Source of the DNA: a virus
Strand: one strand, 5' to 3'
DNA: 20,374 nucleotides
Virus record (IMG/VR): IMGVR_UViG_3300043786_000366
Coordinates: 1-20,374 of that record
The notes under the pieces are model-generated. The model was not told where the DNA came from. It saw nothing but the letters and a program-made list of their open reading frames with translations, and did not search any database. The position numbers and the translations under genes were made by a program. Every line of letters begins with the position of its first letter. Position 1 is the first letter of the stretch. Below are positions 14,500-19,943 of the stretch, piece after piece.

Positions 14500-15400
14500 G
14501 CCCATAATCCACCCCACCAAACATTTGTTCGCTTGACAGCCATGGTAACACGCAAGGGCGCGCAAGCGTGTAGGGCGACGGCTCCGAAACAGATTGTGTG
14601 CGCTTGTGAAAGTGGTGTTTTGCTGACTGTGCGCCCGCATAAAGTACTGTGCGTGCATTATGCTCGTGTGGTACTGCGTCATGTGTGCGGATTCCCGTAG
14701 GGAATCTTGGAAATTATTTTGTATAATGTTTCGGTGGCTAATTCCTGTGCATTATGCGTGGGATTAGCCCTAGGTGTGTGTATGGTCAGAAACTTGCAAT
14801 CGGTTTGGCGGTGTGCTTATTGTGTTTGGCATCGTCAATCGGATGGCGAGGTAGCCTCACGGCACTCACCGATTCACGGGACTCACCCAAATAGCGGTGG
14901 GGCTGAACGGACGGTGGCGATTACGCCCCGATTCGTCAGTGCCCCAAAGCAATCACGAGACATGACGCTCGGTGAAGGGGTAGCGTTGCCAAGGTGCTTA
15001 GGTACCGATACGGTCATACCGTGGCAACGAACGAGTACCGTGGGTTACCTGAATCGGTCACGGCTCGTAATGGGAGCGGTCACAATTGCGTTGCATTGTG
15101 CCGTATCGGGAGTATGGTCTACTAGCCCACATTGTGGGTGGTCTGAGTGTGACAACGATGCGGAGACAATGCAAGTGCAGTGTGGTCGTTGGGTGTATCC
15201 ATCGCAACACGGTTGCAGATGGCACGCTGCTAGGTTGCATGGGCACGATTTCGGCGTGTCTGTGCACCATCGGGTGGGGAGGATTAGACTGCCCACACCT
15301 GAGAGGGTTGGTATGTGCGTCCCATAATCTACGATTATGGGCATAGGCACGCTTGTCGGTGCGAGTCCGACACCATCCGCTATGCTACCGTTGGTAGCAG
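14500..15400 (+). ncRNA. Candidate large structured noncoding RNA with pseudoknot
   Basis: About 900 nt with no credible gene but many consecutive stems: 14548-14553/14666-independent local pair 14566-14571, 14643-14647/14671-14675, 14690-14706 (7 bp), 14736-14745/14760-14769 (10 bp, one G-U), 14837-14842/14869-14874 with an inner hairpin, 14899-14903/14925-14929, 14984-14991/15022-15029 (8 bp), 15032-15042/15059-15067 (9 bp with bulge), 15081-15086/15095-15100, 15126-15138, 15153-15158/15186-15191, 15199-15222 (10 bp, bulged A), 15242-15247/15255-15260, 15321-15341 (9 bp). A 9-bp pairing of 15005-15013 with 15101-15109 crosses the 14984/15029 stem, making a pseudoknot. Size, phage setting and density recall the GOLLD/ROOL class of ornate phage RNAs; that assignment is inference. 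Boundaries are approximate. Confidence 0.55.
15341..15398 (+). ncRNA. Three-stem element with tRNA-like T-loop, leader of the next operon
   Basis: GCATAG (15341-15346) pairs with CTATGC (15380-15385) around a 6-bp hairpin TGTCGG/CCGACA (15354-15359 / 15367-15372). The hairpin's 7-nt loop TGCGAGT follows the T-loop pattern of tRNA TpsiC arms and twister loop 4. A third hairpin GCTACC-GTT-GGTAGC (15384-15398) overlaps the outer stem by two bases, so the two could be mutually exclusive. It ends 18 nt before the SD hairpin of the 15433 gene. No complete tRNA or known ribozyme core can be drawn. It may be the 3' domain of the larger RNA or a separate leader element. Confidence 0.5.
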
Positions 15401-15416
15401 AAACACAACACAACAC

Positions 15417-15429
15417 AACCTAGGAGGTT
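15417..15429 (+). promoter_or_regulatory. Shine-Dalgarno hairpin of the 15433 gene
   Basis: AACCT-AGG-AGGTT folds into a 5-bp hairpin that contains the AGGAGG ribosome-binding site, 3 nt before the ATG. The same palindrome recurs at 17083-17095 and 18053-18065, with near variants at 15698-15711, 18326-18339 and 18970-18983. Confidence 0.65.
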
Positions 15430-15432
15430 GAG

Positions 15433-15612
15433 ATGACACGAAAAGATTATGTGGCGATAGCCAATGCCGTTGCGGATGTGCTGAAAACTTGCGAGGTGGA
15501 TTCGGCAGAATCCACGGCGGTTGAGTTTTTGGCAACGAAGTTGGCGGATGTCTGCCAATCCGACAATGCCCGTTTTGACCGTGAGAAGTTTCTCACGGCT
15601 TGCGGTCTCTAA
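15433..15612 (+). CDS. Small 59-residue phage protein
   Basis: The ORF MTRKDYVAIANAVADVLKTCEVDSAESTAVEFLATKLADVCQSDNARFDREKFLTACGL has a perfect AGGAGG upstream. It looks like a helical protein whose ending (DNARFDREKFLTACG) is a pattern I associate with small conserved phage proteins of unknown function. It heads the accessory operon, between the structured RNA and hammerhead ribozyme 1. Its stop codon lies inside a 7-bp hairpin (15609-15625) that abuts the ribozyme. Confidence 0.75.
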   Translation: MTRKDYVAIANAVADVLKTCEVDSAESTAVEFLATKLADVCQSDNARFDREKFLTACGL

Positions 15613-15625
15613 TCGGTACGATTAG
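15609..15625 (+). other. Hairpin abutting hammerhead 1
   Basis: CTAATCG-GTA-CGATTAG forms a 7-bp stem that includes the stop codon of the 15433 gene. It shares one base with stem II of the ribozyme. It could influence ribozyme folding or protect the mRNA end. Confidence 0.45.
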
Positions 15626-15684
15626 GACGAAACATCGGGACTAGTGTCCCGATGTCACACCGTGTAACGGTGTCTGATGAGTCC
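15625..15684 (+). ncRNA. Type II hammerhead ribozyme 1
   Basis: All core elements are present in type II order. Stem II 3' strand is GGAC (15625-15628), then GAAA (15629-15632). Stem III is a 10-bp hairpin (15632-15641 / 15646-15655, loop TAGT) ending GTC. Stem I is a 6-bp hairpin (15657-15662 / 15668-15673, loop TGTAA). CTGATGA follows (15674-15680), then stem II 5' strand GTCC (15681-15684). Predicted self-cleavage is between C15656 and A15657. It lies between the 15433 and 15718 genes, 44 nt after the former's stop and leaving a 61-nt leader on the latter. A longer reading frame starting at 15652 runs through it and is not the real gene start. Confidence 0.93.
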
Positions 15685-15697
15685 AGTCCGACTACAC

Positions 15698-15711
15698 AAC
15701 CTCAGGAGGTT
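15698..15711 (+). promoter_or_regulatory. Shine-Dalgarno hairpin of the ATPase gene
   Basis: AACCT-CAGG-AGGTT holds the AGGAGG in loop and 3' arm. It begins 13 nt after the end of hammerhead 1 and ends 6 nt before the ATG at 15718. Confidence 0.62.
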
Positions 15712-15717
15712 GAGATT

Positions 15718-17025
15718 ATGCCAGCACAGAAAGCCCGTCGTATCTTAGGATACGACAAGTCAACACAAATGGTGACCTTACAAGGTCACTTCGGTGGTAC
15801 GACCCAACTACCGTTGGGTTCGTTGCCGAAGTCCGAAGTCATCGCCGTTGCCAAGTTCATTGGCATTCGGTTCGTCGGTAAGAATCCGATGGCGATGGAA
15901 TTGGCGACCATTCACAATGCTATTGTGAATGGTGTCCGAACTGTCCACTATGTGGAGAAGTCAACACCTAAGCCGTCAGTGACTCCGTCACCGACACCAG
16001 TCCCCACAACTCCTAAGGAGGAGACACCAATGCCCCAACCCAAGCCACAATCCAAGCCCCAATCCCCTATGGGATTGGAGGAGATGGTTCGCCACATCGC
16101 TAGCGATGTCGTGAACACTGCCCTAGATGGCTACGAGGGTGGCGTGAATTCGGACGAAGTCCGAACAATCGTCAATCCGATTATGGATGGGTTCCGTCAC
16201 GAAGTGACTGAACTTGTGAAGTCCGTCAAGCCGATTGTGAATACAATCGTCGTCAAGGACAAGCCTGCCAAGCCGATGACTGGTGTGCAACACTTCGTGT
16301 TCCCCAAGGTTCTCGGGGCAATCTCCCAAGGTGTCCACTTGTGGCTAGTCGGGCCAGCGGGCACTGGCAAGTCCACCATTGGTGAGCAAGTCGCCGAGGC
16401 GTTGTCGTTGCCATTCAGTGCAGTAAACTGCACCTCAACGATGACCGAAACTGCCCTGAAAGGGTACAACGATGCCAACGGCAACTATGTTGGTACGGAG
16501 TTTCGCCGAATCTTTGAGGGTGGCGGTGTGTTCGTCTTTGACGAAATTGACAACGCCAATCCCAATGTTCTCGGGGCACTGAACAGTGCCCTTGCGAACG
16601 GGTTCATGGCATTCGCCGATAAACGGGTTGCCAAGCATCCCGACTTCGTCGGAATTGCCACTGGCAACACTTTTGGTAGCGGTGCTACCATGGAGTATGT
16701 CGGCAGGAATCCGATTGACGGTGCCACGATTGACCGTTTCGCTCAATTGGAAGTTCCAATTGACGAAAAGGTGGAGGATGCCATGTTGGCATCGGTTGGC
16801 TTGGATGCCATAATCGCCACGAAGTGGGTCACCGCTGTTCGCAAGGCGAGACAGAATGTCTCGGAGTCTGGACTCAAAGTGATTGTGTCACCTCGGGCTA
16901 CTCTGAATGGTGCGAAACTACTTCGTAGTGGTGCATTCACCATGGACGAAGTGTTCACCGCTACCGTCACCAAAGGTGCCAAGCCTGACCAAGTGGCGAA
17001 AATCAGTCAGGGTGTCACTCTCTGA
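15718..17025 (+). CDS. CobS/MoxR-like AAA+ ATPase
   Basis: This protein is 435 residues from ATG 15718, chosen because of the AGGAGG at 15704-15709; the frame extends to 15652 but through the ribozyme. The N-terminal about 80 residues are a separate small domain (MPAQKARRILGYDKSTQMVTLQGHFGG...). A Pro-rich linker (about 83-117) and a helical segment follow. The AAA+ core has Walker A GPAGTGKST (212-220), Walker B VFVFDEID (271-278), sensor-1 ATGN (314-317) and arginine-finger DRF (339-341). The closest recognisable class is the CobS/MoxR (AAA_5) group, which remodels partners with VWA-type proteins. The next gene is the likely partner. The phage role is unknown. Confidence 0.88.
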   Translation: MPAQKARRILGYDKSTQMVTLQGHFGGTTQLPLGSLPKSEVIAVAKFIGIRFVGKNPMAMELATIHNAIVNGVRTVHYVEKSTPKPSVTPSPTPVPTTPKEETPMPQPKPQSKPQSPMGLEEMVRHIASDVVNTALDGYEGGVNSDEVRTIVNPIMDGFRHEVTELVKSVKPIVNTIVVKDKPAKPMTGVQHFVFPKVLGAISQGVHLWLVGPAGTGKSTIGEQVAEALSLPFSAVNCTSTMTETALKGYNDANGNYVGTEFRRIFEGGGVFVFDEIDNANPNVLGALNSALANGFMAFADKRVAKHPDFVGIATGNTFGSGATMEYVGRNPIDGATIDRFAQLEVPIDEKVEDAMLASVGLDAIIATKWVTAVRKARQNVSESGLKVIVSPRATLNGAKLLRSGAFTMDEVFTATVTKGAKPDQVAKISQGVTL

Positions 17026-17042
17026 GTGACGGATTACGAATA

Positions 17043-17070
17043 CCCATCGGGGCAATCCTGCCCCGATGGG
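17043..17070 (+). other. Perfect 12-bp hairpin between ATPase and partner genes
   Basis: Arms 17043-17054 and 17059-17070 pair perfectly around loop ATCC. It ends exactly 12 nt before the next SD hairpin, the spacing seen between each hammerhead and its SD hairpin. It contains no CTGATGA or GAAAC, so it is not a ribozyme. It may be a nuclease processing site, an attenuator or a stability element. Confidence 0.6.
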
Positions 17071-17082
17071 ACACAACGACTC

Positions 17083-17095
17083 AACCTAGGAGGTT
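17083..17095 (+). promoter_or_regulatory. Shine-Dalgarno hairpin of the 17100 gene
   Basis: AACCT-AGG-AGGTT, identical to the hairpins at 15417-15429 and 18053-18065, ends 4 nt before the ATG. Confidence 0.62.
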
Positions 17096-17099
17096 GATT

Positions 17100-17963
17100 A
17101 TGCGAGTCACCAAGAAAGCGAAAGCGTCATGCGGTACCAGCCTTTGGCTGGAGGAATACGATTCACTGGCGGAATGCTTGGATTATGCGGGCAGTAACGC
17201 TAGTCCGAAGTCATCGGACAAGTTCCGTGGTAGCGATTGGGCAGGTAAGACTGAGACACTTCGTGAGGCGGTGACATTGGGACACCAAGGGTACGATGAG
17301 ATTCGTCCCCAAGTGGAGGAGATGTTCACCCAATTGGAGTCCCAATTGGCGAGCCGAATTGAGTCCGCATTTCAGACCCGTTACGACTTCACTGGTAGCG
17401 TGGTGGACATCGGCAAGTTCCTGACTGGTGAGCCTGAGTGCATGATTGACTTCGTGCCCGAACCATCCTCTAGGATGGGGCGTGTAGTCAAAATCATCGT
17501 CAACGGTTCGGCATCGTCACGAATTAGCCCCGACGACATAATTCGTCGTGGTGTCACGGTGTGTGCGTTGGTGGACGCTGTTCACAAGTTGGGTATGGGC
17601 GTTGAGGTTTATGCCGAATTCCCAACCAATGACACTGGCGTGAATGACAGCAAGGGCAAGGTTCACACTTCACTTGTGAAGTTGCATGATTCGCAACAGA
17701 TGTTGGACATCAACAATCTGATGTTCGCATTATGCCATCCGTCAATGCTACGGCGTATCCAGTTCTCCTGCTTGGAGATGACTGAGTGGGAGCCTGCTAA
17801 GCGTCTGGTGCAGGGCGGTTACGGGTATCCTGCAGCGTTGGAGTGCGCTGACCGTGTCGGTGCCGATGTGCGTTGCGAACTGTTGCAGTCTGGCAACGGT
17901 GACATCGTCAAGAATCCAGTGGAGTTCGTGATGTCCACACTGTCAGGATTGGGGGTTCTATAA
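17100..17963 (+). CDS. Putative VWA-like partner of the AAA+ ATPase
   Basis: This protein is 287 residues from ATG 17100 (MRVTKKAKASCGTSLWLEEYDSLAECLDYAGSN). A TTG two codons upstream is less likely. Visible pattern: DKFRGSDWAGKTETLREAVTLGHQGYDEI near the N-terminus, then a beta-alpha core (VVKIIVNGSASSRISPDDIIRRGVTVCALVDAVHKLGMGVEVYAEFPT) and a C-terminal LFALCHPSMLRRIQF-like segment. IVNGSASS in place of a MIDAS DxSxS suggests a degenerate VWA-like fold. Proteins of this type often sit beside phage MoxR-like ATPases, so a functional pair is likely. The exact function is unknown. Hammerhead 2 follows 13 nt after its stop. Confidence 0.72.
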   Translation: MRVTKKAKASCGTSLWLEEYDSLAECLDYAGSNASPKSSDKFRGSDWAGKTETLREAVTLGHQGYDEIRPQVEEMFTQLESQLASRIESAFQTRYDFTGSVVDIGKFLTGEPECMIDFVPEPSSRMGRVVKIIVNGSASSRISPDDIIRRGVTVCALVDAVHKLGMGVEVYAEFPTNDTGVNDSKGKVHTSLVKLHDSQQMLDINNLMFALCHPSMLRRIQFSCLEMTEWEPAKRLVQGGYGYPAALECADRVGADVRCELLQSGNGDIVKNPVEFVMSTLSGLGVL

Positions 17964-17966
17964 TCC

Positions 17967-17981
17967 CGTCCCTTCAGGACG
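17967..17981 (+). other. Alternative hairpin competing with hammerhead 2 stem II
   Basis: CGTCC (17967-17971) can pair with GGACG (17977-17981), which includes the stem II strand of hammerhead 2. This 5-bp hairpin, loop CTTCA, forms before the rest of the ribozyme is transcribed and would delay or switch its folding. Confidence 0.4.
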
Positions 17982-18040
17982 AAACTCAGGTACCGTGCTG
18001 GCTACCTGAGTCACACCGTGAGGCGGTGTCTGATGAGTCC
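17977..18040 (+). ncRNA. Type II hammerhead ribozyme 2
   Basis: GGAC (17977-17980) and GAAA (17981-17984) are followed by stem III of 9 bp (17984-17992 / 18003-18011), with a 10-nt loop that may add two pairs, and C18012. Stem I is 6 bp (18013-18018 / 18024-18029, loop TGAGG). CTGATGA is at 18030-18036 and GTCC at 18037-18040. Beyond an A-A mismatch, stem II can extend by GAA/TTC, the longest stem II of the four. Predicted cleavage is C18012/A18013, 49 nt after the upstream stop, leaving a 58-nt leader for the 18071 gene. Stem I has the same ACACCG/CGGTGT pairs as hammerhead 1 but a different loop. Confidence 0.93.
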
Positions 18041-18052
18041 AGAATGATTCGC

Positions 18053-18065
18053 AACCTAGGAGGTT
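18053..18065 (+). promoter_or_regulatory. Shine-Dalgarno hairpin of the 18071 gene
   Basis: AACCT-AGG-AGGTT again, 12 nt after hammerhead 2 and 5 nt before the ATG. Confidence 0.62.
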
Positions 18066-18070
18066 GGATT

Positions 18071-18238
18071 ATGAATGTTGGTGATGTTGTTCGGTACCGT
18101 GAAGGTACCGTTTTGGCTGGCGAATGCTATTGGGTGATTGGCACACTTCGTGACAGTGACCGAGTGATTCTCGCCGAGTCTGCTCGTGGCGACTCCTATA
18201 AGATTGAGCATCCTCAATTTTTGGAGGTTGTCGCCTAG
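18071..18238 (+). CDS. Small 55-residue protein, hammerhead-flanked
   Basis: MNVGDVVRYREGTVLAGECYWVIGTLRDSDRVILAESARGDSYKIEHPQFLEVVA starts at ATG 18071, with AGGAGG 7 nt upstream. A longer frame from 18026 would run through hammerhead 2 and is rejected. The pattern (GDVVRY, CYWVIG, VILAE, EVV) suggests a small SH3-like beta barrel, a guess from strand pattern only. It is the only gene with a ribozyme on each side, so cleavage would release a 271-nt monocistronic RNA (18013-18283). Confidence 0.68.
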   Translation: MNVGDVVRYREGTVLAGECYWVIGTLRDSDRVILAESARGDSYKIEHPQFLEVVA

Positions 18239-18247
18239 TTGTCCCTA

Positions 18248-18312
18248 GGACGAAACACGGGGTGTGTCGTTGCGCTCCGTGTCGTACCATAAATGTGGTA
18301 CCTGATGAGTCC
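18248..18312 (+). ncRNA. Type II hammerhead ribozyme 3
   Basis: GGAC (18248-18251) and GAAA (18252-18255) are followed by stem III, whose first six pairs (18255-18260 / 18277-18282) extend to about 11 with G-U pairs, and C18283. Stem I is GTACCA/TGGTAC (18284-18289 / 18296-18301) with loop TAAATG. CTGATGA is at 18302-18308 and GTCC at 18309-18312. Predicted cleavage is C18283/G18284, 45 nt after the 18238 stop and 57 nt before the next ATG. Upstream GTCC (18241-18244) could pair with the GGAC as an alternative hairpin with loop CTA. Confidence 0.93.
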
Positions 18313-18325
18313 AGTTTGACCAGTG

Positions 18326-18339
18326 AACACGGAGGTGTT
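18326..18339 (+). promoter_or_regulatory. Shine-Dalgarno hairpin of the 18341 gene
   Basis: AACAC-GGAG-GTGTT displays the GGAG in its loop. It starts 13 nt after hammerhead 3. The arms differ in sequence from the AACCT/AGGTT type but the shape is kept, which suggests the structure matters. Confidence 0.62.
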
Positions 18340-18340
18340 T

Positions 18341-18619
18341 ATGAAAGCGAAAGATTGGGTAGTGTTGTTTCAGGGTTTTGACCCTGAGGAGGAAGTCATC
18401 GCAATTGTGTATGACCGCAGTTTGTTTGGGGATGAAAATTTGGTTCATCCCATTACTGGTGTGGAATACTCCGAGTGCCCGAAGGAAATTTGGCGTGCTA
18501 CGGCAAGTGATTACGAGATTCGTGATTATGCAGCCGAGCAAATTTGGGACGACATCGTACATGACCTGCAAGATGCGATGAAATCATCGTATGAGAATGC
18601 AAATAAGGAGGTGAAATAA
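18341..18619 (+). CDS. Unknown 92-residue acidic protein
   Basis: It starts at ATG 18341 (MKAKDWVVLFQGFDPEEEVIAIVYDRSLFGDENLVHPITGVEYSECPKEIWRATASDYEIRDYAAEQIWDDIVHDLQDAMKSSYENANKEVK), preceded by GGAGG. No family is recognised. The N-terminal half looks beta-rich and the C-terminal 45 residues form an acidic helix. It lies directly after hammerhead 3 and 2 nt before the membrane-protein start, so it shares a ribozyme-bounded segment (18284-18927) with that gene. Confidence 0.68.
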   Translation: MKAKDWVVLFQGFDPEEEVIAIVYDRSLFGDENLVHPITGVEYSECPKEIWRATASDYEIRDYAAEQIWDDIVHDLQDAMKSSYENANKEVK

Positions 18620-18621
18620 TT

Positions 18622-18870
18622 ATGAAGTATGTTACCGTTTCAGGGCTGTTGACTGCGATGGCACTTTGGTGTGCAGGGTCAGTCACTTGGCTAGTTGTAG
18701 CCAACATTGACAAGACAACGAACTATGCAGTTGCGTTGTTTGCGATGATGTTGATTCCGTTGATGTGGATTCCCTTTGGGATTTCGTTGGCGGAGACAAT
18801 GAATGAGTATCGGGCGTACAAGCGTCGCCGTAATGCGAAGCGTCGTCACCCGACACGCCGAGTCCACTAA
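18622..18870 (+). CDS. Small two-pass membrane protein
   Basis: This 82-residue protein begins MKYVTVSGLLTAMALWCAGSVTWLVVANIDKTTNYAVALFAMMLIPLMWIPFGISLAE. It has two hydrophobic segments (about 6-27 and 36-55) and a strongly basic tail (RAYKRRRNAKRRHPTRRVH). The RBS AAGGAGGTG lies about 11 nt upstream, without the hairpin seen at ribozyme-linked genes. It might be an inner-membrane accessory or superinfection-related protein; nothing in the sequence decides this. Confidence 0.7.
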   Translation: MKYVTVSGLLTAMALWCAGSVTWLVVANIDKTTNYAVALFAMMLIPLMWIPFGISLAETMNEYRAYKRRRNAKRRHPTRRVH

Positions 18871-18901
18871 TTCGGGATACCCTCCCGTTATAGTGTACCT
18901 A

Positions 18902-18956
18902 GGACGAAACACCGCTTAGGCGGTGTCCACCAGTAAATGCTGGTGCTGACGAGTCC
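18902..18956 (+). ncRNA. Type II hammerhead ribozyme 4 (CUGACGA variant)
   Basis: GGAC (18902-18905) and GAAA (18906-18909) are followed by stem III, 7 bp with loop TTAG (18909-18926), and C18927. Stem I is CACCAG/CTGGTG (18928-18933 / 18940-18945) with loop TAAATG, the same loop as hammerhead 3. The core is CTGACGA (18946-18952), with C at the variable position 7, then GTCC (18953-18956). Predicted cleavage is C18927/C18928, 57 nt after the 18870 stop and 57 nt before the ATG at 18985. It is the most compact of the four. Confidence 0.92.
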
Positions 18957-18969
18957 AGAACGACTTATA

Positions 18970-18983
18970 GACACGGAGGTGTT
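18970..18983 (+). promoter_or_regulatory. Shine-Dalgarno hairpin of the 18985 gene
   Basis: GACAC-GGAG-GTGTT (first pair G-U) again places GGAG in the loop. It is 13 nt after hammerhead 4. Confidence 0.58.
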
Positions 18984-18984
18984 T

Positions 18985-19602
18985 ATGTTTGGAATGACCA
19001 GTGCGGTACTGCTGAAAGCAGACCCGAATCAAGAACCCGAGCCAATCCTGTTGGGTGGAGGTGACACCGACAAGGTGTCAGAAATCCAAGCCAAAGTAGG
19101 CGGTCACTTTGATGTGGTGCGCCGAGGTGCGGTAGACACTAGCGGTAAGAATGCGTCGTTTGAGATTGTGGGCTATGTCCACGATGAGGGCAAGATTCTG
19201 AATCTGCCCATCAACCCGATGGCAACTATGTTGTTTGAGCAAAACATCCACGGCGATGTGGTGCTTGTCTCCGCTACGAATCCTGAGACTCGTGAAACGG
19301 ATGGCGAGGATTATGATTTGCCATCGGAGTTCACACAGTATCTGATTCTCGGTATGTATGAGGAGATGCGTGAATCGTTGGCATTCAGCAAGTTCGTGAG
19401 TTCTGCTATTGCTAGGGCGGTTCGTGACGGTGCGGTATCCGCTGATGATGCTAGTGAGTTCCTGCAGTTTCTCGCCAAGATGGATGAGAAGGGCGTAGCC
19501 ATGGGCACTGTTGGCGATTTGCCAGAGAAGTTCATGGGCATAATCAAGAAGTCCATCGCTCACGCTATGGACATCGTCACCAAGGAGGATGACAGTGAGT
19601 AA
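18985..19602 (+). CDS. DUF3846-like protein with C-terminal helical extension
   Basis: This protein is 205 residues from ATG 18985 (MFGMTSAVLLKADPNQEPEPILLGGGD). The frame is open up to 18937, but that part lies inside hammerhead 4. Residues about 40-110 (GGHFDVVRRGAVD...IVGYVHDEGKILNLPINPMATMLFEQNIHGDVVLVS) have the pattern of DUF3846 proteins common in phages and plasmids (assignment from memory, moderate). The C-terminal 85 residues are helical (MYEEMRESLAFSKFVSSAIARAVRDGAVSADDASEFLQFLAKMDEKG). Function unknown. Its end overlaps the next start by 8 nt. Confidence 0.7.
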   Translation: MFGMTSAVLLKADPNQEPEPILLGGGDTDKVSEIQAKVGGHFDVVRRGAVDTSGKNASFEIVGYVHDEGKILNLPINPMATMLFEQNIHGDVVLVSATNPETRETDGEDYDLPSEFTQYLILGMYEEMRESLAFSKFVSSAIARAVRDGAVSADDASEFLQFLAKMDEKGVAMGTVGDLPEKFMGIIKKSIAHAMDIVTKEDDSE

Positions 19603-19768: not shown

Positions 19769-19943
19769 TCAGGCAATCGGTGGGGGACGAAAGTCCCCCA
19801 CCACTAAACCGTTTCCGAAGGGGACGAAGTTCACTTGCCCCAAGTGTGATACTTGGGTACAGGTTCACATACCAATCAAGTTCCAACCTGAATGCACAAA
19901 GCATACGGGTGGTGTAATCAAGATGCAGGAGGCATCCAAATGA
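19752..19943 (+). CDS. Small zinc-finger-like protein
   Basis: This 63-residue protein is MKSSPSQAIGGGRKSPTTKPFPKGTKFTCPKCDTWVQVHIPIKFQPECTKHTGGVIKMQEASK. It contains one CPKC knuckle plus a downstream C and H (ECTKH) that could complete a zinc site, a short zinc-ribbon pattern. The Ser/Lys/Thr-rich N-terminus is probably disordered. The SD (GGGAG) is rather far (12 nt), so coupling with the upstream gene is likely. The coding sequence contains a strong GNRA hairpin at 19779-19802. It overlaps the next gene as ATGA. Confidence 0.6.
   Translation: MKSSPSQAIGGGRKSPTTKPFPKGTKFTCPKCDTWVQVHIPIKFQPECTKHTGGVIKMQEASK
19779..19802 (+). other. 10-bp GNRA hairpin inside a coding region
   Basis: Arms 19779-19788 and 19793-19802 pair perfectly and close a GAAA tetraloop, 27 nt after the start codon at 19752. 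Such a stable stem in a coding region may control translation or mRNA stability. It is not a hammerhead, although it contains the string GGACGAAA. Confidence 0.5.

Follow-up and report, generated by a model that had tools for sequence, protein, structure and literature searches.

Here we describe an array of four type II hammerhead ribozymes located in the gaps of a single phage operon in the IMG/VR virus record IMGVR_UViG_3300043786_000366, a complete record of 20,374 bases which was analysed at its full length and is referred to below as the window. The left part of the window is a minus-strand structural module with genes for the major head protein, scaffold, portal and terminase, and the right part is occupied by a plus-strand operon. 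The latter begins with an open reading frame (ORF) of 59 amino acids (aa) and unknown function (orf59, 15433..15612, PHROG 19432), followed by an AAA_5 (MoxR/dynein-like) ATPase of 435 aa (15718..17025), its partner gene encoding a DUF7192 protein of 287 aa (17100..17963), three small ORFs and a DUF3846 protein of 205 aa (18985..19602). The small ORFs comprise one of 55 aa (18071..18238) and a two-gene block of 92 aa and 82 aa (18341..18870). Since the equivalent operon of the closest relative continues with a PD-(D/E)XK nuclease, a DnaB-like helicase, a primase and RusA, the window operon looks like an early or replication operon.

The four hammerheads of the operon

All four ribozymes are encoded on the plus strand. 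Hammerhead 1 (15625..15684) lies between orf59 and the ATPase gene, hammerhead 2 (17977..18040) is located 3' of the DUF7192 gene, hammerheads 2 and 3 (18248..18312) flank the 55-aa ORF, and the two-gene block is enclosed by hammerhead 3 and hammerhead 4 (18902..18956), whose first downstream gene codes for the DUF3846 protein. Their predicted cleavage sites, 15656/15657, 18012/18013, 18283/18284 and 18927/18928, respectively, follow GTC in each case and agree with the positions proposed in the initial annotation of this DNA, which had been made from the sequence alone.

The exact pattern GGACGAAAC-N(26-56)-CTGANGAGTCC has four matches in the window, exclusively on the plus strand, with none expected from 100 dinucleotide shuffles. 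Each site has the layout GGAC-GAAA-stem III-GUC-stem I-CUGANGA-GUCC and the invariant core (CUGAU/CGA, GAAA, and GUC as a cleavage triplet of the GUH form). Stem I of 7 base pairs (bp) and stem III of 6-11 bp are closed by loops, and stem II, 4 bp of GGAC/GUCC, is open, which defines the ribozymes as type II. The full type II cores annotated initially in the intergenic gaps are thus borne out, although the description of their stems as perfectly paired is not, as stem III of hammerhead 3 includes G-U wobbles.

With the RF02276 (Hammerhead_II) model of Rfam release 15 only site 4 was detected, at 32.4 bits and below the gathering score of 37, while the other three copies gave no match; therefore we built a covariance model of our own, R1, from 25 hammerheads of other phages, excluding the window and its relatives. 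The underlying alignment, A1, was selected for paired stems, which would make a count of its own pairs circular, and it was used solely for model building. R1 found all four sites, with 50.8 bits (E = 2e-11), 55.6 bits (E = 9.6e-13), 46.6 bits (E = 2.9e-10) and 56.8 bits (E = 4.4e-13) for hammerheads 1 to 4, the runner-up match in the window scoring 12.7 bits (E = 0.65). The covariance-model scan advised in the initial annotation thus gives significant scores at all four sites with R1 (E <= 2.9e-10) and none at or above the gathering score with RF02276, and most of the array would have escaped a search with Rfam alone. The window copies share with RF02276 the type II permutation and an identical catalytic core, and in both it is stem II that is open, stems I and III being closed; they differ from it in their 4-bp stem II, as the RF02276 alignment has two paired positions there. 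Among about 63 hammerheads in 14 loci the RF02276 threshold of 37 bits was reached by three, which suggests that hammerheads whose stem II has 4 bp mostly fall below the thresholds of Rfam. We have hardly any doubt that the four sites are real hammerheads, and by analogy with characterized members of the class they are probably active in self-cleavage.

Conservation and wider occurrence

Four related viruses were reached through the DUF7192 protein, which in them is 68-89% identical. The gaps that hold their hammerheads match those of the window: L125 has four copies, L126 and L127 have two each, and the virus of L128 has three, one of the last three lying elsewhere in its record, where it precedes an additional gene located 5' of the ATPase gene. 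Homologous gaps to those of hammerhead 2 and hammerhead 4 are occupied in four relatives. Fourteen of the hammerheads of these five phages, the window included, were analysed; they were found by a descriptor demanding paired stems and their locations were fixed by protein homology; their stem cells are paired in 99.3% of cases, compared with 28-49% when the partners are slid. Compensatory change on both sides was seen in 14 of 20 pairs, which upholds the covariation of the stem arms claimed initially, and in one relative even stem II is altered on both sides (AGAC/GUCT for GGAC/GUCC). Such turnover of stems around a fixed core is what would be expected under selection on the ribozyme. A distant blastn search of the phage collection revealed no relatives of the region as a whole, and for the DUF3846 protein a scan gave no relative that was confirmed.

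The bare pattern occurs in at least 120 IMG/VR stretches. Among the matches listed, a structural descriptor accepted 214 hammerheads in 119 loci, with a maximum of seven per locus; the same descriptor found none in reversed or complemented control sequences, and not one of the 119 loci had hammerheads on both strands. In this set the distance from the upstream stop codon to the hammerhead is most often 0-5 nucleotides (nt), and the next start preceded by a Shine-Dalgarno sequence follows at a median of 26 nt, such a start being present within 60 nt of 180 of the 214 hammerheads versus 504 of 2959 random positions. Located between a stop and the next start, the cut therefore spares both ORFs. 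In the window the upstream stop lies 9-31 nt before the hammerheads. A search of 84,980 bacterial and archaeal genomes returned 54 pattern matches, 28 of which pass the descriptor; most bacterial matches of the bare pattern look like chance, because those failing the descriptor are without paired stems. Contigs of Phycicoccus jejuensis and Streptomyces iakyrus (L140 and L144) carry three hammerheads each, which have identical scores and are spaced as mirror images of one another; this suggests a shared prophage or else cross-contamination.

Natural type II hammerheads, including clusters in prophages around single genes or short gene blocks, were described by Perreault et al. 2011 (PMC3088659), who observed cleavage in vitro for three arrays and in E. 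coli for the array of A. tumefaciens, and suggested that long RNAs of phages are processed in this way. The initial statement that type II forms usually occur singly is accordingly not tenable, and arrays are common in IMG/VR as well. The window array resembles those clusters, e.g. the triple array of A. tumefaciens, in having several close copies on the coding strand, placed around phage-derived genes that stand singly or in short blocks. It differs from them in that all four copies belong to type II and have a stem II of 4 bp, and in its genes, an early operon for an AAA ATPase, DUF7192 and DUF3846 proteins of an uncultured podovirus-like phage. In the type II consensus of the same authors, loop I forms a pseudoknot with the tail following stem II in the majority of sequences but not in all; in 173 distinct hammerheads pooled here, complementarity between loop I and the tail, with or without G-U pairs, did not exceed that of permuted tails, and the pseudoknot was dropped as a candidate. 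A review by de la Pena et al. 2017 (PMC6155905) notes the link to phages and treats the role of hammerheads in them as an open question, and our search of the literature outside subscription journals found no later papers on phage hammerhead arrays. The novelty of the present case is hence that of a clean example of an array type first reported in 2011. It offers a compact site for testing whether hammerheads segment mRNA, since four copies lie in a short stretch, close relatives retain them and neighbouring gaps differ in whether they hold a ribozyme, and the wider set supplies numbers for placement from stop to next start.

Proposed segmentation of the early message and its alternatives

We consider it fairly probable, function included, that the self-cleaving hammerheads segment a long early phage transcript between its cistrons. 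Each hammerhead would fold once its GUCC strand has been transcribed and would then cut after GUC. The upstream message would thereby close with the stem III hairpin and carry a terminal 2',3'-cyclic phosphate; the downstream message would open with a 5'-OH, and in it the stem I hairpin would precede first a Shine-Dalgarno hairpin and then the start codon. The predicted messages are orf59, the ATPase with the DUF7192 protein, the 55-aa ORF, the 92-aa and 82-aa pair, and the DUF3846 gene onwards, which agrees with the initial observation of one ribozyme per gene or gene pair. With intact ORFs and structured ends, stability and translation could be set separately for each gene or gene pair. Beyond the motifs, their compensatory evolution and their placement documented above, the self-cleavage and the end groups in this scheme would be those of known hammerhead chemistry, and that segmentation of the mRNA is the benefit selected for is something we only infer, as is the refolding step considered below. 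Cutting just upstream of a start codon likens the array to the glmS ribozyme and other self-cleaving bacterial mRNA elements; the glmS ribozyme has a different fold, depends on a ligand, occurs in a single copy and serves message destruction.

After cleavage the two products would stay joined by the 4-bp stem II alone, and in the family of the window phage the tail may re-pair with GAGUC of the catalytic strand, so that the upstream product would be released and religation blocked. Possible refolding hairpins of this kind, all on the plus strand and with a putative role, were noted at 15680..15693 (pairing AGUC in the catalytic strand to GACU in the tail and excluding stem II, in the minimum-energy fold of the 3' product), 18035..18050 (GAGUC/GAUUC), 18309..18320 (a weak one of 3 bp, GUC/GAC) and 18951..18966 (GAGUC/GACUU). 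In the minimum-energy fold of the 3' product, all 14 family copies have stem I, the core-tail hairpin and the Shine-Dalgarno hairpin, and since the core-tail hairpin uses the catalytic-strand GAGUC, it excludes stem II; the full-length RNA is predicted to favour the hammerhead in 12 of the 14. Another subset of phages has N'UCAG in the tail, whose first base matches the variable base of CUGAN in 20 T/A and 6 C/G cases versus 3 crossed ones (Fisher p = 0.0004, without correction for relatedness), the C-type cases coming from at least five separate loci (L007, L041, L055, L057 and L093). Within the first 12 tail bases the longest core-tail helices are longer than with permuted tails (p <= 0.005). 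We tentatively propose that many phage type II hammerheads hold a refolding helix, in which the tail complements the catalytic strand (N'UCAG with CUGAN, or GAYUY with GAGUC) and the end of the message refolds after cutting, ejecting the upstream product and preventing religation, or else gates the ribozyme before the cut. Judging from sequence and predicted folds, this helix is possibly a new structural detail, to be taken as a lead and not as a result.

Several findings weigh against segmentation as described above. The hammerheads are concentrated at the start of the operon, only a part of which is thus segmented, and the one relative scanned whole (G001) has no further hammerheads farther down the operon. 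Besides, the refolding helix of the family shows no two-sided covariation, because the core is invariant, and minimum-energy core-tail pairing across all loci (112) lies within the range of dinucleotide-shuffled tails (mean 106, maximum 120), so that the refolding idea rests on the covariation of the N base and on the family folds.

The ribozymes might instead act as switches gated by translation or by a ligand and cut only when translation or folding permits, either because the GGACGAAAC strand is occupied by a ribosome during termination or because the tail hairpin traps the catalytic strand. The 0-5 nt that most often separate stop codon and ribozyme in the wider set and the complementarity of tail and catalytic strand (Fisher p 0.0004) would suit such gating; the window stops, however, are mostly beyond the footprint of a terminating ribosome at 9-31 nt upstream, and the full-length window RNAs are predicted to fold mostly as the active hammerhead, which makes switching unlikely here. 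We find it quite improbable that the hammerheads work in pairs to release RNAs of gene length, which a host or phage ligase would convert into circular or spliced mRNAs by sealing their 5'-OH and 2',3'-cyclic-phosphate ends: Perreault et al. (PMC3088659) sought such products and found none, and a Pfam scan of 10 early-region proteins of the closest relative revealed no ligase, even though the arrays, confined to one strand, bracket genes singly and in pairs, a phage with a terminase 52% identical to that of the window carries a gene annotated as RNA ligase, and the end chemistry is established to fit ligation of the RtcB type.

Hammerheads could also be selfish or nearly neutral spacers, spread by recombination between gaps and tolerated since cutting between cistrons does little harm. 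This would account for the gene content that differs around phage arrays (PMC3088659) and for certain stem I sequences recurring in different gaps and phages, yet the compensatory turnover of stems, the invariant core and the occupation of matching gaps beside a protein 68-89% identical argue for selection on activity, and we give the spacer explanation little credence. On the grounds of placement, the ribozyme-based processing of a polycistronic phage mRNA suggested in the initial annotation, that is segmentation, is the best-supported reading, with cleavage itself standing as a prediction.

Other features of the record

The gap between the ATPase and DUF7192 genes (17026-17099), which has no hammerhead, holds a conserved 12-bp hairpin on the plus strand (17043..17070). 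Its inner part, GGGGCAATYCTGCCCC, is constant and its outer stem covaries among five phages (CCCATC/GATGGG, CACCGT/ACGGTG, CGCCGT/ACGGCG and CCGTT/AACGG), with no U run 3' of it. It could be a site for a protein nuclease, so that ribozymes and protein nucleases may both process the operon, whereas the initial annotation had suggested ribozymes in place of RNase III/RNase E sites.

At many gene starts of these phages, with or without a hammerhead, the Shine-Dalgarno sequence lies in a small hairpin, whose arms vary by gene and remain paired (CAACC/GGTTG, AACAC/GTGTT, CACC/GGTG). In the window such plus-strand hairpins were found before the ATPase gene (15697..15712, CAACC-TCAGGA-GGTTG) and at 18052..18066 (CAACC-TAGGA-GGTTG), 18326..18339 (AACAC-GGAG-GTGTT) and 18970..18983 (GACAC-GGAG-GTGTT), with further ones at 15416-15430 and 17083-17097. 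At 19779-19842 the Guanidine-II riboswitch model scored 22.3 bits (E = 1), short of its threshold of 32, and this match was rejected as probably due to chance.

Among annotated phages, the best match of the window terminase, 52% identical, belongs to a podovirus-like genome from spring water. A gene annotated as RNA ligase lies at 20387-21487 of L196, a phage whose terminase is related to that of the window.

Finally, the 5' leader of the operon (14956-15400) contains a structured and conserved RNA, roughly 450 nt long. It is 82% identical over about 200 nt to its counterpart in L127 and 75% identical to that in L125, shows compensatory changes in several helices and has a 3' part resembling a T-arm (GGTGCGAGTCC). 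This RNA gave no match in Rfam and is possibly an undescribed phage noncoding RNA.

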